Origin: Planctomycetota bacterium
Lineage (GTDB): Bacteria; Planctomycetota; Planctomycetia; Planctomycetales; Planctomycetaceae
Assembly (NCBI GenBank): GCA_027618475.1
Contig: JAQCEJ010000041.1
Coordinates: 1-43,184, forward strand
Length of the DNA stretch: 43,184 nucleotides
Direction: 5' to 3'
Positions within the stretch are counted from its first letter, which is position 1, and the number at the start of each line of letters is the position of its first letter. The notes beneath the pieces were generated by a model, which saw only the letters and a list, made by a program, of their open reading frames with translations, was not told the origin of the DNA and ran no database searches. Of the stretch, positions 14,338-28,241 are shown one piece after another. Both the position numbers and the translations under genes were made by a program.

Positions 14338-15732
14338 GTGACACGGCGGTTTACAACATACGATCAGGCGGTTGAGTTCCTGTTCGGCCGAATTAATTAT
14401 GAACGCCCGCAATTGAATGCGTTAAAAGCGTCAGATTTCAAACTCGATCGCATGCGACTGCTGCTCGAACGATTGGGTAATCCTCAGAATGATATACCTG
14501 CAATTCACATCGCGGGAACCAAAGGCAAAGGTTCGACTGCAGTGATGATTAGCGAAATCCTGCAGGCCGCAGGATTTCGCGTCGGGCTGTTCACATCTCC
14601 CCATCTCGCACAATTCGAAGAACGGATGCGCGTTGATGGCCGGATGCCGAATTCCGATGAAGTACTCGACATCTTGAACACTGTTGCCGATGTTGTCACA
14701 GAGATGGATGCCGATGGCGCAAAAACACCTGTCACGTTTTTCGAAATGACCACAGCCATGGCATGGCTGTTCTACCGACAACAGAATGTCGAGATCGTCT
14801 CGCTTGAAGTCGGACTTGGTGGCCGCCTCGATTCGACAAATATCTGCCAGCCCGAGATCTGCCTGATCACCAACATCAGCCGCGACCATGTCGCCATTCT
14901 CGGCAACACGGTAGAAAAAATTGCCCGCGAGAAGGCGGGGATAATCAAGCCGGGTGTCCCGGTGATCTGCGGCGTCACCACACCCGGACCACGTGCTGTC
15001 ATTAATGAAGTTGCAATCGCAAACACGTCAGAAGTATGGCAGCGCGATCGCGACATATTCGCCACGTATGAATGTACCGGAAACTGCGAATTGTCGCTCG
15101 AACTTGCCGGCTGCGTTGATGTGGAAACTCCCGTGAGATACTGGAAGCAGATACCCGTAACATTGCCGGGGGCGCATCAGGGGAACAACGCTGCACTCGC
15201 CGTAGCAACCGTCGACCGGTTGAATCAGCGAGGCTGGTCGATTTCTGACGAGGCGGTGTACGGCGGCATGCAGCGTGTCCGCTGGCCGGCACGCATCGAG
15301 ATCCTGCATCGTCGACCGTGGGTCATTCTCGACGCGGCACATAATGAAGCCTCGTGCGCAGCTTTGTTGGAAACGCTGAATGCTCGATTTCCCGGCGGGC
15401 GAAAAATTATCGTTTTCGCGGTTTCGAAAGATAAAGACGTACAAGGTCTGTTGCAACAGTTAGTTGGCTATGCCGACAAAATGATCTTTACACAATATCT
15501 GTCGAACCCTCGGGCGATGCCGACTACCGAATTGATTTCTCTGGCCGAGTCATTAAAACCAGGTACCTATCGACATGCCGCGAGCCCGCAACAGGCCTGG
15601 CAAATGGCCGAACAATTGATCGGCCCAAATGATGTTATATGCATCACCGGTTCCTTTTTTCTTGCCGCCGAATTTCGCGAAATCTGGCGGCAACGTTCGC
15701 TTGAATTGTCGGTGCAGCTTGTTAACGCATGA
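14338..15732 (+). CDS. folC: Folylpolyglutamate synthase / dihydrofolate synthase
   Basis: FolC adds glutamate to dihydropteroate and/or folates. The 464 residues fit the Mur ligase-like family: the P-loop (HIAGTKGKGST, about 57-67), the FTSPHLAQFEERMRVDG loop, the LEVGLGGRLDSTNI motif and DAAHNEAS in the C-terminal domain. The start is GTG with AGGAG (14325-14329) 8 nt upstream. It is not coupled to other folate genes. The next gene, an epimerase, begins 30 bp downstream, so they may share a transcript. Whether it is bifunctional cannot be told from sequence alone. Confidence 0.94.
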   Translation: MTRRFTTYDQAVEFLFGRINYERPQLNALKASDFKLDRMRLLLERLGNPQNDIPAIHIAGTKGKGSTAVMISEILQAAGFRVGLFTSPHLAQFEERMRVDGRMPNSDEVLDILNTVADVVTEMDADGAKTPVTFFEMTTAMAWLFYRQQNVEIVSLEVGLGGRLDSTNICQPEICLITNISRDHVAILGNTVEKIAREKAGIIKPGVPVICGVTTPGPRAVINEVAIANTSEVWQRDRDIFATYECTGNCELSLELAGCVDVETPVRYWKQIPVTLPGAHQGNNAALAVATVDRLNQRGWSISDEAVYGGMQRVRWPARIEILHRRPWVILDAAHNEASCAALLETLNARFPGGRKIIVFAVSKDKDVQGLLQQLVGYADKMIFTQYLSNPRAMPTTELISLAESLKPGTYRHAASPQQAWQMAEQLIGPNDVICITGSFFLAAEFREIWRQRSLELSVQLVNA

Positions 15733-15762
15733 AGTTGTACTGCAGCTGTTACGAAAGATCGT

Positions 15763-16722
15763 ATGTCCCTTGTCGTCGTCGATTCTCATACCGCCGGTGA
15801 GCCGACACGCATAATTGTATCGGGTGGCCCTTCGTTGAATTCTGGTTCACTCGCCGAACGGCGCGACCGATTTCGCCACGACTTCGATCATCTGCGCTCT
15901 GCGGTCGTTCACGAACCGCGAGGTTCAGATGTGCTCGTCGGCGGCATGTTGTGCAAACCAACCGACTCGCAATGTGTAGCCGGTGTGTTTTTCTTTAACA
16001 ACGTCGGCTATCTTGGGATGTGCGGACATGGGACGATTGGTGTTGCCGTGACGCTGGCACATCTCGGCCGCATTGCGCCAGGCGAACACTGTCTTGAAAC
16101 GCCCGTAGGTTTGGTTCCCTTCACGTTGCACGACGAAAACAGAGTGACACTCGAGAACGTTCCGAGTTACCGTCTGCAAAAAGACGTAGCCATCGACGTA
16201 TCCGGCATCGGTCGTTTTGTCGGCGACGTTGCCTGGGGCGGTAACTGGTTTTACCTGGTGCATCAGAACAACGAACGTCTCGAGTTCTCGCGCGTCGATG
16301 ATTTGACGTCGGTCGGTTGGAAGATTCGCCATGAACTCCAACGACGGCAGATCACCGGTGCCGATGGTGCCGAAATCGATCATATCGATTTATTCGGACC
16401 ACCGATGTCGTCCGACAATCACAGTCGTAATTTTGTGCTTTGCCCCGGAGGTGCATACGATCGTTCTCCCTGTGGAACGGGGACAAGTGCAAAACTCGCC
16501 TGCCTTGCCGCAGACGGTAAACTACAGCCGGGTGAAGTCTGGCGGCAGGAAAGCATTCTCGGTACGGTGTTCGAAGCTACGTATCGTTGGGACGACGACC
16601 AACACCAGTCGATCGTTTCCAGAATCACGGGATCTGCGTTTGTGACGGGTGAGGCGACATTGCACCTTGATCCTCACGATCCGTTTCGTTATGGCATTTG
16701 TACGGATGTGACTTCTCGTTGA
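15763..16722 (+). CDS. Proline racemase superfamily, probable 4-hydroxyproline 2-epimerase
   Basis: This 319-residue protein has both catalytic cysteines, Cys87 (GMCGHGTIG) and Cys237 (SPCGTGTSA). They act as the acid-base pair in racemases and epimerases of this superfamily, whereas trans-3-hydroxyproline dehydratases replace the first Cys with Thr or Ser. It therefore most likely epimerises trans-4-hydroxy-L-proline to cis-4-hydroxy-D-proline; proline racemase activity cannot be excluded. The following gene is a DadA-like FAD oxidase starting 26 bp later, the expected second enzyme of D-hydroxyproline breakdown. Cytoplasmic, no signal peptide. Confidence 0.88.
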   Translation: MSLVVVDSHTAGEPTRIIVSGGPSLNSGSLAERRDRFRHDFDHLRSAVVHEPRGSDVLVGGMLCKPTDSQCVAGVFFFNNVGYLGMCGHGTIGVAVTLAHLGRIAPGEHCLETPVGLVPFTLHDENRVTLENVPSYRLQKDVAIDVSGIGRFVGDVAWGGNWFYLVHQNNERLEFSRVDDLTSVGWKIRHELQRRQITGADGAEIDHIDLFGPPMSSDNHSRNFVLCPGGAYDRSPCGTGTSAKLACLAADGKLQPGEVWRQESILGTVFEATYRWDDDQHQSIVSRITGSAFVTGEATLHLDPHDPFRYGICTDVTSR

Positions 16723-16748
16723 TACGTACTATTGAAAGTCCGTTATCC

Positions 16749-18005
16749 ATGTCGCAACGGCATATCGTTATCATCGGCGGAGGAATCATCGGTTTGGCAT
16801 GTGCCGATGAATTCTCGCGGACCGGTTGGCAGGTCACCGTTGTTGATAAAGGAGAAATCGGCAAGGGATGTTCACACGGCAATTGCGGACTGGTCTGCCC
16901 CAGCCATGTGCTGCCACTCGCAGAACCGGGGGCAGTGCTAAAGACGGTGAAGGCGTTATTTCAATCCCATTCTCCATTTCGTGTCAAACCGCGGTTTGAT
17001 CTCGCCTTGTGGTCGTGGTTCTGGCAGTTCACTAAACGTTGCAATACGTGCGATCGGTTGGCCTCGGCGGCGTCATGCCATGCTCTGTTGCAGTCGTCGA
17101 TGAATCTTTACCGCGATCTAATGTCCCGAGAGACATTTGACTGCGACTGGGAAACACATGGCTTGCTCTTCGTCTATCAACATCGTCACGAAATGGAAGC
17201 ATTCGCACCGATCGATCGACTATTGAAAGACCAATTTCAACTCGCGGCAAAACGATTAACAGGTGACGAACTCGTCGAATTCGATGCTTCGTTAAAATCA
17301 GGGCTTGCCGGCGGCTGGTTTTATCCCGATGATGCACACGTTCGATCCGATCGTCTGATCGCGGGCTGGAGAACGTCGTTAAAGTCTCGTGGCGTACAAA
17401 TGCTCGAACATCATGAATTCGATCGGTTCATTGGCGAATCGAGCGGTCATATTTCAGGTATCTCTACGACCAAAGGCGCAGATCTTGTAGGAAATCAATT
17501 CGTCATCGCGACGGGCGCATGGACCGGTCTGTTGAATCGCGCATTAAGAACGCGTCTTCCGATTCAACCGGGAAAGGGCTATTCTCTGACCGTGCCGCGG
17601 CCAGAAAATGCGCCGCGTGTGCCGATGCTTTTTCCCGAGCATAAGGTCGCGGCGACTCCCTGGAGATCAGGTTTTCGCCTCGGTTCGATAATGGAATTCG
17701 CAGGTTTCGATGCGACACTTTCACCGACCCGAATGCAACTTCTCCGGGACGGTGCGAAACCGTACCTGCATACACCGATTCCCGAACAACCAGACGAAGA
17801 GTGGTTCGGTTGGCGACCGATGACGTACGATAGTCTACCGATAATCGATCGTCTCCCATGTTTCAAGAATGTCTGGATCGCCGCCGGACACAACATGCTC
17901 GGCCTTTCGATGGCGCCGGCGACTGGGAAGCTGCTCCGAGAATTGGTTGAACAGAAGCCGCCGCATATCGATCCAGGCCCTTACCGAGCGAGTCGCTTTG
18001 CATAA
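16749..18005 (+). CDS. FAD-dependent D-amino acid oxidoreductase (DadA/D-hydroxyproline dehydrogenase-like)
   Basis: From the ATG at 16749 the product is 418 residues, beginning with a DAO-type Rossmann motif (HIVIIGGGIIGLACA) and VVDKGEIGKG for FAD binding. It ends with the family's C-terminal FAD block (WIAAGHNMLGLSMAPATGKLL). Upstream in-frame codons to a TTG at 16698 overlap the epimerase and are not needed. Family members oxidise D-amino acids, including cis-4-hydroxy-D-proline, to the imino acid. Its place directly after the epimerase supports hydroxyproline use. The later steps (deaminase, 2-ketoglutarate semialdehyde dehydrogenase) are not in the window. Confidence 0.85.
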   Translation: MSQRHIVIIGGGIIGLACADEFSRTGWQVTVVDKGEIGKGCSHGNCGLVCPSHVLPLAEPGAVLKTVKALFQSHSPFRVKPRFDLALWSWFWQFTKRCNTCDRLASAASCHALLQSSMNLYRDLMSRETFDCDWETHGLLFVYQHRHEMEAFAPIDRLLKDQFQLAAKRLTGDELVEFDASLKSGLAGGWFYPDDAHVRSDRLIAGWRTSLKSRGVQMLEHHEFDRFIGESSGHISGISTTKGADLVGNQFVIATGAWTGLLNRALRTRLPIQPGKGYSLTVPRPENAPRVPMLFPEHKVAATPWRSGFRLGSIMEFAGFDATLSPTRMQLLRDGAKPYLHTPIPEQPDEEWFGWRPMTYDSLPIIDRLPCFKNVWIAAGHNMLGLSMAPATGKLLRELVEQKPPHIDPGPYRASRFA

Positions 18006-21586: not shown

Positions 21587-21615
21587 TTGGGATCGTTGTC
21601 ACTAGCGTCTATAAT
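21587..21615 (+). promoter_or_regulatory. Promoter of the AOR-fwdD-fwdB operon
   Basis: TTGGGA (21587-21592) and a perfect TATAAT (21610-21615) are separated by exactly 17 bp. The start would be near 21622, giving a leader of about 32 nt before the TTG start codon. This is the best sigma-70-like promoter in the window. Confidence 0.6.
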
Positions 21616-21653
21616 ACCGGTAGTTTTTCATCGCTCTCAACGAAAGCCATCCA

Positions 21654-23441
21654 TTGTACGGTTATCACGGTCGCTATCTGCTGATTGACCTCACGAACCG
21701 CATCCGTAGCGAACATCTGCTGCCGGAAGATGTGCTGCGCGAGCGTATCGGCGGTGTGGGGTTGGGAACATGGTTGTTGCACGAACATTCGGTCGATCGG
21801 CAGGAACCACTCGCACGTCAGGCTCCGCTGATATTCGTCTTCAGCCCGCTGGTGGGAAGTCCGTTGACGACATCAGCGAAATTCGCCGTCGTTGGGCAGT
21901 CGCCATTGACCAATCGCATCAACGATTCGCTTTCGTCGTCGCACTTCGCGATCGCCGGTAAGAAAACGGGTTACGATGCGATCGTGATCGTCGGGGCCGC
22001 CTCTTCACCGACGTGCATCGTCGTCGAGCCCGAGAGTGTTCGCTTCGAATCGGCAACCGATGAATGGGGAAAGAGCAGCCGCGAAGCGGGGAAGAGTCTC
22101 GCTCAACAACTCGGCGCCGGGTTTCGCATCGCCTCGATCGGACCGGCGGGAGAAAACCTCGTCCGCTTCGCCACCGTTTCGCACGAAGGCCGGCACGCGG
22201 GTCGCGGCGGCATGGGGGCGGTGATGGGGGCGAAGAGACTCAAAGCCATTGCCGTGCGCGGCGATCGCATCACCCCCTATGCTCACCAGGGACAACTCAC
22301 GGCTTACAGCCGCGATCTTTCGAAGAAATCGTTCGGTCCTGCGACGGCAAAATATCGCGAACTCGGCACACTCGGAAATCTGCTGACGTTCAATCGGCTC
22401 GGTACATTGCCGACACGCAACTTTCAAACCGGCACACTCGCCGGGCTCGAAGGTTTCGCGACCGAGACGCTCGCCGAGTCATTCGGACACGTGCGTAACT
22501 CGTGCGCCGCATGCACGATCGGTTGCGAGCATCTGTTTCAATTGCCGGGAAAGCAGAATGTGCGCATGGAATACGAGAATCTGTTCGCTCTCGGGCCATT
22601 GTGCGGCATCACCGATCCGCAGACCGTGCTCGAAGCGTCCCAACTCTGTGATGATCTGGGAATGGACACCATCAGCGCCGGCGCGACCGTCGCATTCGCT
22701 ATGGAGTGTGCCGAGAAAGGAATACTTTCTCATTCCGAACTGCGATTCGGAAACGGGGAAGCATTACTCGCGATGCTGAAAGATATCTCATCGCGAACAG
22801 GCTGGGGCGATTTGCTTGCGAATGGCACGCGCTACGCTTCGCAAGAACTCGGCGGGGGGAGTGAAGATTTCGCGCCGCATGTGAAGGGACTTGAAATTCC
22901 CGGTTACGAACCGCGCGCATTACAGGCCATGGCGGTTGGGTTCGCTGTCGGTTCGCGCGGTGCCGATCATAATCGTTCGGGAGCCTATCAGATCGATTTT
23001 TCGGAGTCCTTCGACCGGCTTCAAGCCAACGATGAATCAGTTCGTGGGGCGATCGAAACCGAGAACGAAGCCGCAATTATGGATTCTCTCATTCTCTGCA
23101 AATTTCTTCGCGGTGTGTTCGACGACCGCATGATCTCTATGGCCGAAATGCTGCACCTCATTACAGGCTGGAATGTCACCGCCGCTGAGTTGAAGACGAC
23201 GGCCGAACGAATTGTGACGGCAAAGAAACTCTACAATATTCGTCAGGGATGGACGCCGGCCGAAGACACATTGCCGAAACGTTTTTTGAGTGAGGCATTG
23301 CCAGAAGGGGCGAGCAAAGGAGCCGCGTTAAGCAGTGACAACCTGCAACGATTGATCCGGCAATACAATCTGTTCCGAGGTTGGACTCCCGAGGGATTTG
23401 TCCGGCCGATTACCGCTGACAATCGCGGTGTCACTTGGTAG
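21654..23441 (+). CDS. Aldehyde:ferredoxin oxidoreductase (AOR) family tungsten/molybdopterin enzyme
   Basis: AOR-family enzymes oxidise aldehydes to acids with ferredoxin, using a tungsten bis-pyranopterin and a [4Fe-4S] cluster. This 595-residue protein keeps all four cluster cysteines: Cys284, Cys287, Cys291 (NSCAACTIGC) and Cys482 (LILCKFLRGV), with spacing close to Pyrococcus AOR. The N-terminal YGRxLxIDLT-like strand (YHGRYLLIDLTN) and pterin-binding GRGGMGAVMGAKRLKAI block are present. The start is TTG with no ATG nearby. It precedes fwdD- and fwdB-like genes by 43 bp in one probable operon, which suggests a role in C1 or aldehyde metabolism. The natural substrate is unknown. Confidence 0.92.
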   Translation: MYGYHGRYLLIDLTNRIRSEHLLPEDVLRERIGGVGLGTWLLHEHSVDRQEPLARQAPLIFVFSPLVGSPLTTSAKFAVVGQSPLTNRINDSLSSSHFAIAGKKTGYDAIVIVGAASSPTCIVVEPESVRFESATDEWGKSSREAGKSLAQQLGAGFRIASIGPAGENLVRFATVSHEGRHAGRGGMGAVMGAKRLKAIAVRGDRITPYAHQGQLTAYSRDLSKKSFGPATAKYRELGTLGNLLTFNRLGTLPTRNFQTGTLAGLEGFATETLAESFGHVRNSCAACTIGCEHLFQLPGKQNVRMEYENLFALGPLCGITDPQTVLEASQLCDDLGMDTISAGATVAFAMECAEKGILSHSELRFGNGEALLAMLKDISSRTGWGDLLANGTRYASQELGGGSEDFAPHVKGLEIPGYEPRALQAMAVGFAVGSRGADHNRSGAYQIDFSESFDRLQANDESVRGAIETENEAAIMDSLILCKFLRGVFDDRMISMAEMLHLITGWNVTAAELKTTAERIVTAKKLYNIRQGWTPAEDTLPKRFLSEALPEGASKGAALSSDNLQRLIRQYNLFRGWTPEGFVRPITADNRGVTW

Positions 23442-23484
23442 ACTGGCAGTTCGTGTGTCTGTTGCCGAAATCCGTGGACAAAAG

Positions 23485-23838
23485 ATGAATATGCCTAAAA
23501 CATTTATTCTCATCCCCGGCCGCACAAGCCGACAGGGAACCGGCCTTAACGAAGGCAAATATTCGAACGATTATCTGGACGAAATCAACACGGTTTTGAT
23601 CAATCCCGAAGACATGCAGAGGCTTGGGTTGCAGGATGGGGATACCGTTCGTATGTGGACCGATTATGCTGAAGTCCAGGTCACCTGCAAAACCGATAAA
23701 GGAGAATGCCCGCCGGGAATCGTCTTCATTAGTTATGGCGACAAATCGAGCCGGCTGATGCAAGGTGAAACGCACGGCTCGGGAATGCCGACGAGTAAAG
23801 GGATGGACGTGCAGATTGAGAAAGTAATTGCGTCGTAA
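23485..23838 (+). CDS. fwdD: Formylmethanofuran dehydrogenase subunit D-like (molybdopterin dinucleotide-binding)
   Basis: This 117-residue protein has the fold of the molybdopterin-dinucleotide-binding domain, the small FwdD/FmdD subunit that in archaea completes the pterin pocket with FwdB. Blocks seen are FILIPGRTSRQG, VLINPEDMQRLGLQDGDTVRMWT and PPGIVFISYG. A longer frame from 23398 overlaps the AOR gene and is not needed; ATG 23485 (or 23491) fits the domain. It precedes the fwdB-like gene by 90 bp. The partner subunit is encoded next door, so the pair probably forms one catalytic unit. Confidence 0.88.
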   Translation: MNMPKTFILIPGRTSRQGTGLNEGKYSNDYLDEINTVLINPEDMQRLGLQDGDTVRMWTDYAEVQVTCKTDKGECPPGIVFISYGDKSSRLMQGETHGSGMPTSKGMDVQIEKVIAS

Positions 23839-23928
23839 CAAGTCTCGTTACCAATAACAAGATTTCGAAATTCATTGAATTTCACCACGTCCCGTCAAAT
23901 TCACGTTGAACCGTCAAAGATCAAAAAT

Positions 23929-25263
23929 ATGAGCATCGCCGAAGTTGAACCGCAAACCGAGACATCGCTTAAGGTCATTCCCGACGCGACCTGTACATTC
24001 TGCGGGTGCGTCTGCGACGACATTGAACTGACGGTCGAAGATCAGCAGATCAAACAGGCGAAAAATGCCTGCGTGCTCGGCAAAGCCTGGTTCTTCAATC
24101 ATCACATCGAAGATCGACCGCAGGCACTCATCAAAGGTCAACCCGCGACATATGAAGAGGGGATCGCGAGAGCGGTCGAAATTTTGCTGAATGCCAAATA
24201 CCCAGTGACATACGGTTTATCGGATACAACCTGCGAAGCGCAGCGCAAGGCTGTTGCGATCACTGATTGGATCGGCGGTAACATCGATACAACGACTTCT
24301 GTCTGTCACGGCCCTTCGGGAATGGCGTTCCAAACGGTCGGCGAAACGACGTGTAGCCTCGGCGAAATTAAAAACCGGGCTGACTTCCTTATTTTCTGGG
24401 GAGGCAACCCCGCTGAAAGCCATCCGCGGCATTTCACCAAATACAGCCTGATGCCTAAGGGTGATTTCCTTCCCAAAGGACGAAAAGACCGTACCGCGAT
24501 GCTCGTCGATGTTCGCAAGACGAAAAGTGCAAAGGCGGTCGATATTTTTCTGCAAATTAAGCCTCGATCCGATTTCGAACTCTTGTGGGCGATGCGCGGT
24601 CTCGCTAAAGGGATCGACGTCGATCCGCGTGTGGAAGAAAAAACCGGCATTCCGCTGGACAAACTCGACGACATCGTCAAACAGATGAAGCAAGCTCATT
24701 ACGGGGCGATTCTGTTCGGCATGGGCCTGACGATGACCCGCGGCAAGCATATCAACTCCGAAGGGCTTCTCGGGTTGGCTCGTGATATGAATCAACATAC
24801 TCGCTGGGTCGCCAAACCGATGCGCGGTCACGGCAACGTAACCGGTGCCGACAACGTGGTGACATGGTCGACGGGGTATCCGTTCGGCGTGAATCTCAGC
24901 CGTGGCTATCCGCGATTTAATCCGGGGGAATATACGACGTCCGATTTGCTCGCGCGCGGAGAAGCCGATGCCGCAATGATTATTGCTTCGGACCCGATGT
25001 CGAATTTCAGCCAGCCAGCGCGCGAACATCTTGCGAAGATCAACAGCATCGTACTCGATCCGAAGTTGAGCGACACTGCGAAAGTCGCGACCGTGGCATT
25101 CACGACGGCGACGTACGGTATCAACGTCCCCGGCACCGTCTATCGTATGGATGATATCCCGATTCCACTCCGTCCTGCGTTCGAATCGCCTTACTGGAGC
25201 GACCTCAAAATCCTCACGGCGATCGAGAAAGGAATACGTGAGAAACAATTGGCCGTGAATTAA
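23929..25263 (+). CDS. fwdB: Formylmethanofuran dehydrogenase subunit B-like (Mo/W catalytic subunit)
   Basis: This 444-residue protein resembles FwdB/FmdB, the formate-dehydrogenase-like catalytic subunit. The N-terminal [4Fe-4S] motif is complete: Cys22, Cys25, Cys29 (CTFCGCVCDD) and Cys48 (NACVLG). Cys126 lies in the SVCHGPSG motif, where the archaeal enzyme has its metal ligand. Retention of both contrasts with FhcB of methylotrophic proteobacteria, which as I recall has lost the cluster and active-site residues. The start ATG 23929 (MSIAEVEP) is preferred to a TTG at 23875. Subunits A and C are absent here; the operon ends in a convergent DUF1501 gene 43 bp away. Confidence 0.9.
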   Translation: MSIAEVEPQTETSLKVIPDATCTFCGCVCDDIELTVEDQQIKQAKNACVLGKAWFFNHHIEDRPQALIKGQPATYEEGIARAVEILLNAKYPVTYGLSDTTCEAQRKAVAITDWIGGNIDTTTSVCHGPSGMAFQTVGETTCSLGEIKNRADFLIFWGGNPAESHPRHFTKYSLMPKGDFLPKGRKDRTAMLVDVRKTKSAKAVDIFLQIKPRSDFELLWAMRGLAKGIDVDPRVEEKTGIPLDKLDDIVKQMKQAHYGAILFGMGLTMTRGKHINSEGLLGLARDMNQHTRWVAKPMRGHGNVTGADNVVTWSTGYPFGVNLSRGYPRFNPGEYTTSDLLARGEADAAMIIASDPMSNFSQPAREHLAKINSIVLDPKLSDTAKVATVAFTTATYGINVPGTVYRMDDIPIPLRPAFESPYWSDLKILTAIEKGIREKQLAVN

Positions 25264-25306: not shown

Positions 25307-26689
25307 CTACAACAATTCCTCGATCGGTGTAGGGTCTTCCAGCACCGGGTTTGGGCGTCCTTGATGATCGAGGATGTGCATATGTGGGTCGATACCCATC
25401 GCCGTGTAGATCGTCGCGTGAATATGATCGGGACGAAGCGGCCGGTCTTTGGGCGCATAACCTTTGCTGTCGGTCGAACCGACGATCGTTCCCCCTTTGA
25501 TTCCACCGCCGCCGAGCAGGCAGAACATTGATGCCCCCCAGTGGTCGCGACCGGGGGTTCCCTGACTTCCCGGGGGACCGCCGTTGCCACCGTCGTTCAT
25601 CTTGGGTGTGCGGCTGAATTCTCCACAGAGAATCACAACCGTCGATTCCCACATTCCCCGTTGATCGAGGTCGTGTAACAGCGCAGCAACCGATGAATCG
25701 ACCATCGGCAGATAACGTTCCATCTCCGATTGCAAACTCCAGTGATGGTCCCAACCACCGAAATGAACAGTGACGAACGTCGAACCTGCTTCGACGAGAC
25801 GGCGTGCGAGCAACGTACTCTGTCCCCAACTGTGCCGGCCGTAGGTGTCGCGTAAACGTGGATCTTCGCTGTTGATATCGAACGCCTTACGAGCACGTTC
25901 ACCCGATACCATCTGATAGGCTTCTTGATCGAATTTGTCGAGCGCGTCGAATGTCCCTTTACTGTCCATGTCGCGGGAAATCTGATCGAACTTTGACATT
26001 AGAAAACGGCGATCTTGTAGTCGTTGTAACGACAACCCCTGCGCGAGATTCAGATTCTGCACCTGGAAGTTGGCGTTATTCGGGTCGCCGCCAGTCTGAA
26101 ACGGATCGTATTGCACACCGAGATAATTGCCTCCGAAGTAACCGGGGGCCAAACCGATACTTGATGCCACAGGAACAGACACGTAGGGTGGCATGCCTGC
26201 TTCGCGCGAGCCTCGTTTCATTGCGATCAGCGAACCGATCGACGGAAATTTACCCGTGCTATTCGCACCACTGACACCCATATTTTTAGTCGTCAACATC
26301 CGGTGACCACCGGCGAAATGGTCGCCGGTTCCGTGCGCCAATGATCGGACGATCGAAAACTTGTCAGCAACCTGTGCCTGAAGAGGAAAGAGTTCTGAAA
26401 TTTCCATTCCCGGCACATTCGTGGGAATAGGATTCCAGATTCCACGATTTTCGGCGGGAGCCTGCGGCTTCATATCATAGAGGTCGAGATGACTCGGTCC
26501 GCCGTCGAGCCAGATCAGTATGGCGGAGATATCTTTCTTGCTGCCGGATTGTTCCGCAGCCGAGGCTTTGGCGCGGAGGACTTGCGATAATCCCGCCGAG
26601 GCCATACCTGCGACACCAAATTGCACAAAACTTCGCCGGCACATGCCGTCACAATATGGGTTGCTGTTACCGAGATCGATGCGGAACAT
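25307..26689 (-). CDS. DUF1501 protein (exported, sulfatase-like)
   Basis: This 460-residue DUF1501 protein has a twin-arginine-type start (CRRSFVQFGVAGMASAGL) and an AxA-like region (AKASAAEQ), so it is probably exported folded. The body carries family blocks IWLDGGPSHLDLYDMKP, GCxxGxDH-like GRDHWGASMFCLLGGGGIKGG, and a C-terminal MGIDPHMHILDHQGRP. DUF1501 belongs to the alkaline-phosphatase/sulfatase fold and is hugely expanded in planctomycetes, usually next to DUF1553 cytochrome proteins. No such partner is here. AAGGAG lies 7 nt before the ATG. The region upstream of this gene was invaded by the IS at 26739. Function unknown. Confidence 0.92.
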   Translation of the reverse strand: MFRIDLGNSNPYCDGMCRRSFVQFGVAGMASAGLSQVLRAKASAAEQSGSKKDISAILIWLDGGPSHLDLYDMKPQAPAENRGIWNPIPTNVPGMEISELFPLQAQVADKFSIVRSLAHGTGDHFAGGHRMLTTKNMGVSGANSTGKFPSIGSLIAMKRGSREAGMPPYVSVPVASSIGLAPGYFGGNYLGVQYDPFQTGGDPNNANFQVQNLNLAQGLSLQRLQDRRFLMSKFDQISRDMDSKGTFDALDKFDQEAYQMVSGERARKAFDINSEDPRLRDTYGRHSWGQSTLLARRLVEAGSTFVTVHFGGWDHHWSLQSEMERYLPMVDSSVAALLHDLDQRGMWESTVVILCGEFSRTPKMNDGGNGGPPGSQGTPGRDHWGASMFCLLGGGGIKGGTIVGSTDSKGYAPKDRPLRPDHIHATIYTAMGIDPHMHILDHQGRPNPVLEDPTPIEELL

Positions 26690-26776: not shown

Positions 26777-28165
26777 TTATATCGCTACGAGCGCCGAGCC
26801 GGTTTGTGAAAAACTTGCGTCGAAGGTTCCCCGGATGAACAAACAGTCGTTCGGTGGCTCCCATCGACGCTTGGACGCGTTTCTGAAGCACTCCAGCACG
26901 CCAATCAGCGCAGCCAACAGCGCCGCCAGCCCCTGCAGACACCTGGGCTTGCCCACGCCGAACAGTTTGAGCATGATCAGACCCAGGTTTCTCGCCGCTG
27001 CCACCATCTGATAGCGCTTCGTCACCTTCTCGATCCCTCGCAACCACGTGCGTCTTGCGCCCCCCGTCTCGCAGGTATGAGCGAAACTCCGCTCGACCCG
27101 TTCGCTGCGCTGCTTCTGCAAGCGCTGGCCGCGAGCACCTTTGTTCCGCCGACGGTTCGCACGATAAGCCGCTTCGAAGTCCTCAGGCTTGTCGGTCCAG
27201 CGTCGCTCGTGATTCAACTCCGACTCCGCGATATAAGTTCGCGTTCCATAGGTTCCCAACTCCCGGCAGCCGAGCAGCGTCTGGTTCGAGTGATAGCCTT
27301 TGTCTGCCACCGCCTCTTCGATCTCGCTGACCCCCCCCGCCTGTTCCAGGTTGTCGGCGGCGTGACTGAGACTTTCCGTCAGCGTGTGCATGTCCGCTTG
27401 ATGGCCCTGATAAATCGTCGCAGCGAGAATGAATTCGCTGTCGAGATCGATCGTGTGTTCGGCCTTGTACGACAGATGCGTCGTGCCGTCTTTCATCTTC
27501 ATAATGCGGGCAGCGGGATCGCTCGGAGATGCCCACTCGTCGTTCGAAACCTTCTTGTCCTTGCGGTTTTTATCGAACTTTCGCAGGTCGTCGTCAGTCT
27601 CGATCGGCACGCCCGCCGCCTCAGCCAAACCGCGAACGTAGGCTTTCCAGTCGTCGCCGGTGTCTTTGCGGACGATCGATTTCATCGCCGCGTTCGCTTC
27701 CAGCAACGTCGAATCGACGGCCACCGTCTTGTTCGAGAGCAGTCCGAACTCGTCCGCCAGCTTCAGCACGAAGGCAAACACCTGCTCGTGGACTTCCAGC
27801 GGGATCCGCACGCCGATCCGCGACAGACTCGAATGATCGGGCGTCTCTTCGTTGTAGGCATACCCCAGAAACGCCGACAGCGACCGGCTGTCCGCACATC
27901 GCCAGGCGATGCCCCGCTGCGAGTCGATCCCTTCGAAGTAGCCGATAAACAGCATGCGGAAGTAGACCCCCGGAGGAATGCCCCGCCGCCCCATCTTCTG
28001 GGCGTAGTACGGTGCGCAGGTCTCTTCGATCCAGCGATCGAAGTCTCCTTCGGCGAGCAGGGCGTTGAGCTTGTCGTAAAACACGTGACGAGGCACGTCC
28101 GGCAGCGAATCGGTTTCGATCCAGAATTCCTGCTGCCGTTCTTGCGGTTTGCGTCCGAGACTCAT
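26777..28165 (-). CDS. IS1182-type transposase (DDE)
   Basis: From the ATG at 28165 (GGAAA about 9 nt upstream) the product is 462 residues; a longer frame starts with TTG at 28237. The N-terminal DUF772-type domain (DVPRHVFYDKLNALL, GIPPGVYFRMLFIGYFEG) is followed by a DDE_Tnp_1 catalytic core. The candidate acidic residues are the Asp in VAVDSTLLEAN, the Asp in VADKGYHSN and a Glu in SERVERSF. The C-terminal arginine-rich tail (RANRRRNKGARGQR) fits the family. No frameshift or internal stop is visible, so the enzyme should be functional. Confidence 0.92.
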   Translation of the reverse strand: MSLGRKPQERQQEFWIETDSLPDVPRHVFYDKLNALLAEGDFDRWIEETCAPYYAQKMGRRGIPPGVYFRMLFIGYFEGIDSQRGIAWRCADSRSLSAFLGYAYNEETPDHSSLSRIGVRIPLEVHEQVFAFVLKLADEFGLLSNKTVAVDSTLLEANAAMKSIVRKDTGDDWKAYVRGLAEAAGVPIETDDDLRKFDKNRKDKKVSNDEWASPSDPAARIMKMKDGTTHLSYKAEHTIDLDSEFILAATIYQGHQADMHTLTESLSHAADNLEQAGGVSEIEEAVADKGYHSNQTLLGCRELGTYGTRTYIAESELNHERRWTDKPEDFEAAYRANRRRNKGARGQRLQKQRSERVERSFAHTCETGGARRTWLRGIEKVTKRYQMVAAARNLGLIMLKLFGVGKPRCLQGLAALLAALIGVLECFRNASKRRWEPPNDCLFIRGTFDASFSQTGSALVAI

Positions 28166-28241
28166 GCGAGCGGTTTCCGGGGCGTCGGGGGATGGATTAG
28201 AAATCGCGAATATCGAAAATAGCGGCGCGTCCGTCAAGTGA

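Follow-up and report, generated by a model that had tools for sequence, protein, structure and literature searches.

An aldehyde:ferredoxin oxidoreductase (AOR) and two subunits of a formylmethanofuran dehydrogenase-type enzyme, FwdD and FwdB (together FwdDB), are encoded side by side in a Planctomycetota bacterium (GenBank assembly GCA_027618475.1, contig JAQCEJ010000041.1, positions 1 to 43,184; this whole stretch of 43,184 nt is called the window). AOR and the cysteine (Cys) type of FwdDB found here are co-inherited across the 120 genomes searched, a strong genetic association, and this shared inheritance suggests that the two enzymes work together. Judged by the residues of its metal site, FwdDB is very probably a real molybdenum or tungsten (Mo/W) enzyme, as a first-pass annotation of the window had proposed. 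The three genes are consecutive on the + strand, all are intact, and the intergenic gaps measure 43 and 90 nt:

21587..21615, +, sigma-70-like promoter match TTGGGA-N17-TATAAT, 10/12 matches (weak evidence)
21654..23441, +, AOR, TTG start, 595 amino acids (aa), without an adjoining gene for a partner subunit
23485 (or 23491)..23838, +, FwdD-like molybdopterin-dinucleotide-binding subunit, ATG start
23929..25263, +, FwdB, predicted Mo/W catalytic subunit of formylmethanofuran dehydrogenase, Cys form, ATG start, 444 aa
within 23992..24072, +, codons of the four [4Fe-4S] cysteines Cys22, Cys25, Cys29 and Cys48 of FwdB, by alignment to archaeal FwdB
24304..24306, +, TGT codon of the predicted metal ligand Cys126 of FwdB, an in-frame TGA in the selenocysteine relatives
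24829..24831, +, codon of His301 of FwdB, corresponding to His290 of the solved archaeal enzyme

The metal site of FwdB and its partner subunit

FwdB scores 498 bits against TIGR03129 (cut-off 328) and at best 372 bits against the FwdB chains of solved archaeal structures. In the alignment to 5t5i_B, Cys22, Cys25, Cys29 and Cys48 fall on the cluster cysteines, Cys126, i.e. the cysteine of the SVCHGPSG motif, corresponds to Cys118, and His301 to His290. Thus, the five cysteines that had been named as retained in the first-pass annotation all line up with the archaeal ligands, and a misalignment, which would have spoken against a metal enzyme, is not observed. In the archaeal structure 9sfi the position of Cys126 is occupied by an X, taken as selenocysteine (Sec). 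According to excerpts of PMC11656701, the metal ligand is a Cys (or Sec), and His290 is listed among the residues around the metal.

The FwdB-family alignment comprises 46 Cys-type, 22 Sec-type, 17 FhcB-type and 4 g3-type proteins, the latter from genus g3; these 17 and 4 are the only FhcB-like proteins aligned. Types were assigned by hand among the matches listed, i.e. proteins at least 67% identical and similar to the window FwdB were taken as Cys-type, those with about 55% identity and a TGA as Sec-type and the rest as FhcB-like. The Cys-type set of 46 genomes includes three partial genes (G058, G113 and G117). At position 126 a Cys is present in 43/43 Cys-type proteins with letters there (3/46 are without letters) and an in-frame TGA in 22/22 Sec-type genes; the FhcB-type proteins have 11 Cys, 5 Gly and 1 Ser (n=17), and the position is deleted in 4/4 g3-type proteins. 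A His at position 301 is found in 46/46 Cys-type, 22/22 Sec-type, 1/17 FhcB-type and 0/4 g3-type proteins. The four cluster cysteines are present in all four types wherever the sequence reaches them, including 17/17 FhcB-type proteins, so that the idea that Fe-S cysteines by themselves prove a metal enzyme had to be abandoned.

The contrast to FhcB drawn in the first-pass annotation was based on the same cysteines and is borne out only in part: the four cysteines are common to planctomycete FhcB, which even has the ligand Cys in 11/17 cases, but other features separate the two. These are the invariable Cys/Sec ligand, His301 (68/68 versus 1/17), the presence of FwdD, and the tree. The loss of the metal site expected of FhcB is not seen in the window FwdB, as compared with planctomycete FhcB (methylotroph FhcB was not aligned). 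In the FwdB tree a 100/99 branch parts the FhcB-type and g3-type proteins from archaeal, Cys-type and Sec-type FwdB, the window FwdB being located on the archaeal side, and the Cys-type (98/82) and Sec-type (100/100) proteins each form one group. This tree is unrooted, has five archaeal rows, leaves out rows of less than 380 aa and gave long-branch warnings, chiefly for FhcB-type and archaeal rows.

Two observations concern FhcB itself. The end branches of FhcB-type proteins are 0.36-1.46 long as compared to 0-0.25 for the Cys- and Sec-types, as expected of a subunit freed from catalysis, although sampling differs too. In genus g3 (L072-L075) the FwdB-like proteins have the CHGP stretch deleted and the four Fe-S cysteines kept, making them candidates for a metal-free, cluster-bearing FhcB.

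FwdD is a short protein that matches Molydop_binding with 52 bits. Its best matches in the Protein Data Bank (PDB) are archaeal FwdD chains (top 67 bits, 2ki8), which identifies it as the FwdD subunit of a formylmethanofuran dehydrogenase; counting against this membership, it scores 80 bits against the archaeal FwdD model NF042908, below the cut-off of 175. According to the 2016 opinion article PMC5020050, fwdD is absent from planctomycetes, yet FwdD is found in 69/120 genomes of the source order. Across these genomes FwdD of any type and FwdB of the Cys- or Sec-type agree in 116/120 cases (66 both, 3 FwdD only, 1 FwdB only, 50 neither). Although a Sec-type FwdD is present in G097 and G112, no good FwdB match of theirs is among the matches listed, and they are not counted as Sec-FwdB genomes.

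In the Sec-type sister clade (n=22) the TGA coincides with the metal-ligand position, in the context TSL-U-HGPTE. SelA is over its cut-off in 22/22 of these genomes and in 20/98 others, and the association of Sec-FwdB with SelA also holds within genera (12/12, reached by 85/20,000 shuffles). The best match to tRNA-Sec (RF01852) is at least 55 bits in 18/22 Sec-FwdB genomes and weaker in G064, G095, G108 and G109. Behind the TGA the 22 Sec sequences share, as their consensus fold, a SECIS-like 7-bp stem with a 4-nt loop (alifold -13.5 kcal/mol; -0.7 for 43 Cys sequences). The window FwdB itself is no selenoprotein gene by these features, having TGT at the ligand position and a SelA match in the source genome of only 35 bits, below the cut-off. 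An FhcB paralogue on contig C128 of the source genome was considered as a Sec protein and rejected, its one TGA being an ordinary stop and its ligand position Cys. A Sec-containing fmdB had already been published in 2016 for one planctomycete, P2 (PMC4807772). In G058 (L086, 6621-13953) both types meet: behind FwdD-FwdB(Sec)-FwdA-FwdC come a Cys-type FwdB, from which residues 1-148 and with them the cluster cysteines and the ligand are missing, and a second, Cys-type FwdA; this genome is without AOR of the clade discussed here.

Co-inheritance and gene order of AOR and FwdDB

The AOR matches AFOR_N (202 bits) and AFOR_C (360 bits), and its nearest PDB entry is 1aor (343 bits). Its cluster cysteines 284, 287, 291 and 482 are conserved in 35/35 aligned AORs, and so are Thr239, Glu308, Tyr418 and His439 (35/35; the clade has 48 members), which align with Pyrococcus Thr243, Glu313, Tyr427 and His448. 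The latter are described as pterin-contact residues of aldehyde-oxidizing members in excerpts of PMC13328260. The protein thus carries both domains, the four [4Fe-4S] cysteines and the pterin-contact Thr/Glu/Tyr/His of the AFOR family.

Among the 120 genomes of the source order, for which genus labels were used and no species tree, 48 have an AOR of this clade and 46 a Cys-type FwdB; both are present in 44, AOR only in 4, FwdB only in 2 and neither in 70. The Sec genome G091 has a distant AOR-like match (32%), which is not counted as belonging to the clade. In the six genera where both vary, AOR and FwdB agree in 38/38 genomes, with a shuffle mean of 22, and 0/100,000 within-genus shuffles reach 38. 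As a control, AOR and SelA have no association within genera (8/15, below the shuffle mean of 9.7). Linkage alone does not explain this co-inheritance because AOR is nearby in only 16/46 Cys-type loci; in the single-contig genomes G016 and G061 AOR and FwdB are more than 1 Mb apart and still co-occur. In 10 Cys-FwdB genomes this FwdB is the only FwdB-family match among the matches listed, and all 10 have AOR and FwdA. Genomes with FhcB-type proteins only, with Cys-FwdDB and AOR, and with Sec-FwdDB coexist within single genera, e.g. g20.

The gene order AOR-fwdD-fwdB, which had been called unusual, recurs on one strand in 15/46 Cys-type loci from 12 genera and is therefore not due to chance. 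The 46 loci are L041-L060, L086, L101-L124 and the window; many stretches stop at contig ends, i.e. all counts are lower bounds. Within the 15, other ORFs lie between AOR and fwdD in L060, and 1.3 kb between fwdD and fwdB in L054; in L056 AOR is divergent. Of the 46 stretches, 31 carry fwdD, 26 fwdA, 16 AOR, 11 ftr, 4 fwdC and 4 MoeA; a MoaD-like gene is present on 12 and always together with AOR (12/16 AOR-bearing stretches). The longest arrangement, moaD-AOR-fwdD-fwdB-fwdA-ftr, is present in L058, L112, L114 and L120, and the adjacency of AOR and fwdD persists where fwdB is located elsewhere (G057, G016). Of the 22 Sec-type loci, 19 have fwdD, 19 fwdA, 18 fwdC, 5 ftr and none AOR on the stretch. 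The best 80 of 403 loci of FwdB relatives overlap the loci of the 120 genomes and do not make an independent sample; 61 of these stretches include fwdD and 19 AOR, and 78/80 carry planctomycete names. One planctomycete-type fwdB (70% identity) stands under a Euryarchaeota archaeon record (L212), probably a mis-titled or mis-binned metagenome-assembled genome. Related genes lie immediately upstream of moaD-AOR in L041, L131, L132, L141 and L146; that of L131 belongs to the PIG-L deacetylase family by Pfam.

For the window, one promoter had been suggested to drive all three genes. The two gaps are compatible with co-transcription of AOR, fwdD and fwdB, but the promoter itself is unproven: the stretch contains 5 promoter-like sites as compared to 2.8 +/- 1.9 in shuffles, so the match at 21587-21615 is not above chance. 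In the vicinity, a DUF772/DDE transposase gene (26780-28237, -) is located 1.5 kb downstream of fwdB, beyond a DUF1501 gene (25310-26689, -), and at 14338-18002 (+) genes for a Mur-ligase-like protein, a proline-racemase family protein and an FAD-dependent DAO oxidase follow each other, perhaps for hydroxyproline catabolism.

A search for fwdA and fwdC elsewhere in the source genome (5.93 Mb, 218 contigs) had been suggested, and both are present over their cut-offs (FwdA, contig C68, 756 bits; FwdC, C176, 259 bits), together with Ftr on C214. A missing molybdopterin or tungsten pathway would have argued against a metal enzyme; as far as moaA is concerned this is not the case, the gene being split across the ends of contigs C151 and C106, where neither piece alone (83 and 277 bits) reaches the cut-off of 284, and other pterin genes and tungsten uptake were not searched. 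In the FwdA tree, made by a quick method with many weak forks and without rows of less than 450 aa, FwdA of Sec operons forms a deep separate branch that also holds the second FwdA copy of the Cys-type genome G030. FwdA encoded beside Cys-FwdB is intermixed with that of FhcB-only genomes, and this mixed part also contains the one FwdA of the source genome. The notion that FwdB travels with its own FwdA thus fits the Sec type and fails for the Cys type.

Proposed function and competing explanations

Based on these findings we consider it fairly probable that FwdDB is a true Mo/W formylmethanofuran dehydrogenase that is linked to ferredoxin and works with AOR. We infer the direction of the reaction, its substrate, the metal, the electron carrier and what flows between AOR and FwdDB as follows. 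FwdDB would carry a Mo- or W-bis-pterin besides a [4Fe-4S] cluster and would sit on the same FwdA/FwdC as the FhcB-based hydrolytic complex of the cell. C1 units would be transferred from formyl-tetrahydromethanopterin to the furan coenzyme via Ftr, FwdA would free formate inside the complex, and, rather than formate being released, FwdB would oxidize it to CO2, reducing ferredoxin. AOR may oxidize formaldehyde or another aldehyde of the same metabolism and feed the same low-potential ferredoxin pool, and the supply of pterin and metal may be common to both enzymes. The coupling of aldehyde oxidation to formyl-C1 handling through ferredoxin, proposed in the first-pass annotation, thus gains likelihood from the co-inheritance while still being inference. 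More tentatively, AOR and the metal-bearing FwdDB may form an undescribed aldehyde-C1 module in which they trade electrons via ferredoxin, with FwdDB as a swap-in B subunit that makes the shared Fhc (FwdA/FwdC) a reversible dehydrogenase forming or fixing CO2, so that one cell may have a hydrolase with FhcB or a dehydrogenase with FwdDB. The confidences that we attach to these and to the following explanations are not mutually exclusive.

Several observations weigh against the proposed cooperation. AOR occurs without FwdB in G001, G006, G009 and G079, all of genus g2 (G079 has a Cys-type FwdD), and FwdB without AOR in G031, which also lacks FwdD, and in G058, where residues 1-148 are missing. 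AOR is found with Sec-FwdB in 0/22 genomes, which a coupling of AOR and Fwd as such does not predict. Within genera AOR also tracks the presence of two FwdA genes (31/36, reached by 4/20,000 shuffles); a Cys-type operon with an fwdA of its own would produce such a pattern, and operon transfer may hence account for part of the signal. In the source genome fwdA, fwdC and ftr are on contigs other than that of AOR-fwdD-fwdB, and a conventional formate dehydrogenase alpha subunit is over the cut-off on contig C19. Thus, formate oxidation need not rely on FwdB, and the assumption that FwdB is the sole formate-dehydrogenase-type enzyme of the genome was discarded.

The same genes might work in the reductive direction: aldehyde oxidation by AOR would provide ferredoxin of very low potential, with which FwdDB-A-C would fix CO2 as a formyl group into the tetrahydromethanopterin pathway. 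Aldehyde/acid couples are at least as low in potential as the formyl-methanofuran reaction, which counts for this possibility. Methanogen archaeal Fwd runs in this direction, and with AOR as the electron source one would expect strict co-inheritance. For the formyl-methanofuran reaction a midpoint of about -0.53 V is given in excerpts of PMC11656701. However, FwdA of Cys-type genomes comes from the FhcB-only pool, whose methylotroph relatives act oxidatively (PMC10100899, in part), and Sec-FwdB genomes do without this AOR. We regard aldehyde-driven CO2 fixation as rather unlikely and favour the oxidative direction, with C1 units and aldehydes as substrates and ferredoxin as acceptor. That the two enzymes merely share a cofactor supply, both needing tungsten/pterin maturation while AOR serves only in aldehyde detoxification and FwdDB in an unrelated part of C1 metabolism, appears unlikely to us. 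AOR does neighbour MoaD-like genes (12/16 AOR stretches) and MoeA (4/46 Cys-type stretches), and the simpler tungsten oxidoreductases of Class I-III act in aldehyde detoxification among other roles, according to parts of PMC13328260. Nevertheless, Sec-FwdB, which by homology needs a like cofactor, co-occurs with this AOR in none of 22 genomes, and AOR adjoins fwdD specifically, even where fwdB is located elsewhere.

FwdDB could also be a formate dehydrogenase that acts without FwdA, AOR converting formaldehyde to formate and FwdDB oxidizing the formate in a two-step, ferredoxin-linked route that bypasses the furan coenzyme. The relationship of FwdB to formate dehydrogenases speaks for this, as does the position of fwdA off the stretch in 20/46 Cys-type loci, the window included; on the other hand, fwdA is on 26/46 and ftr on 11/46 stretches, and the ten genomes in which Cys-FwdB is the sole FwdB-family match among the matches listed all have FwdA over the cut-off. 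Because of these operon ties to FwdA/Ftr and the ten genomes, we prefer a formylmethanofuran dehydrogenase and consider a free formate dehydrogenase quite improbable. Least of all do we expect FwdB to be a metal-free scaffold like methylotroph FhcB, its cysteines being kept by happenstance. The Fe-S cysteines and SICHGPS are found in the FhcB paralogue of this genome, too, but this paralogue has Pro at the position of His301, the residue that separates 68/68 from 1/17 proteins. Moreover, the sister clade swaps Cys and Sec exactly at the ligand, and FwdD, the other pterin-binding part, tracks FwdB.

If FwdDB is a Mo/W enzyme, its co-inheritance with one AOR clade means that in many planctomycetes C1 oxidation may end with ferredoxin, or the pathway may operate in reverse. 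As the types occur side by side within single genera, the question of hydrolase or dehydrogenase is directly testable.

Comparison with known systems

No description of a pairing of AOR and Fwd in planctomycetes was found in the literature searched, which is a partial sample. Among tungsten-containing oxidoreductases, as covered by excerpts of PMC13328260, the AOR large subunit has the pterin-contact residues of aldehyde oxidizers, all conserved here; the terms 'Planctomycet', 'fwd' and 'formylmethanofuran' are absent from the main text of that paper. The Hakuba actinobacterium has a bacterial fwd operon, fwdDBA-ftr-fwdC, without fwdE, fwdF and fwdG, according to parts of PMC7325909, where its FwdB is said to have a [4Fe-4S] domain and the catalytic Cys118; the same sentence denies it tungstopterin motifs, which reads like a slip. 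It differs in belonging to another phylum and in that AOR is cited there for acetate/acetaldehyde rather than as a member of the fwd operon.

The methylotroph Fhc formyltransferase/hydrolase complex shares the homologous FwdA/FhcA, FwdC/FhcC and Ftr/FhcD. Entry 6s6y is, we presume, this complex. Excerpts of PMC10100899 list FhcB without Mo/W-bisPGD and describe the methylotroph tetrahydromethanopterin C1 pathway as ending in formate. The planctomycete FhcB-type proteins lack His301 in 16/17 and the ligand Cys in 6/17 cases, whereas the window FwdB has both. Another such system is the fmdD-fmdB-fmdA-fmdC operon of planctomycete P2 (Rhodopirellula), which like the window has planctomycete fwdD/fwdB, one form of it with selenocysteine (PMC4807772, in part). 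That paper states that some organisms including P2 hold both Sec and Cys forms and that glycine homologues occur in three other planctomycetes; it treats the Sec form as a selenoprotein, while the window represents the Cys clade, with which AOR is associated. 'Aldehyde ferredoxin' and 'tungsten' are absent from its main text. Finally, archaeal FwdABCD(FG) (5t5i, 8rja, 9sfi, 7bkb, 9sw6) has in common with the system described here the cluster cysteines, Cys118 and His290 of FwdB, the FwdD subunit, and FwdA and FwdC, which are encoded in the genome. In contrast to archaeal Fwd, however, the planctomycete system resides in a bacterium, is linked to AOR and takes its FwdA from the FhcA pool.

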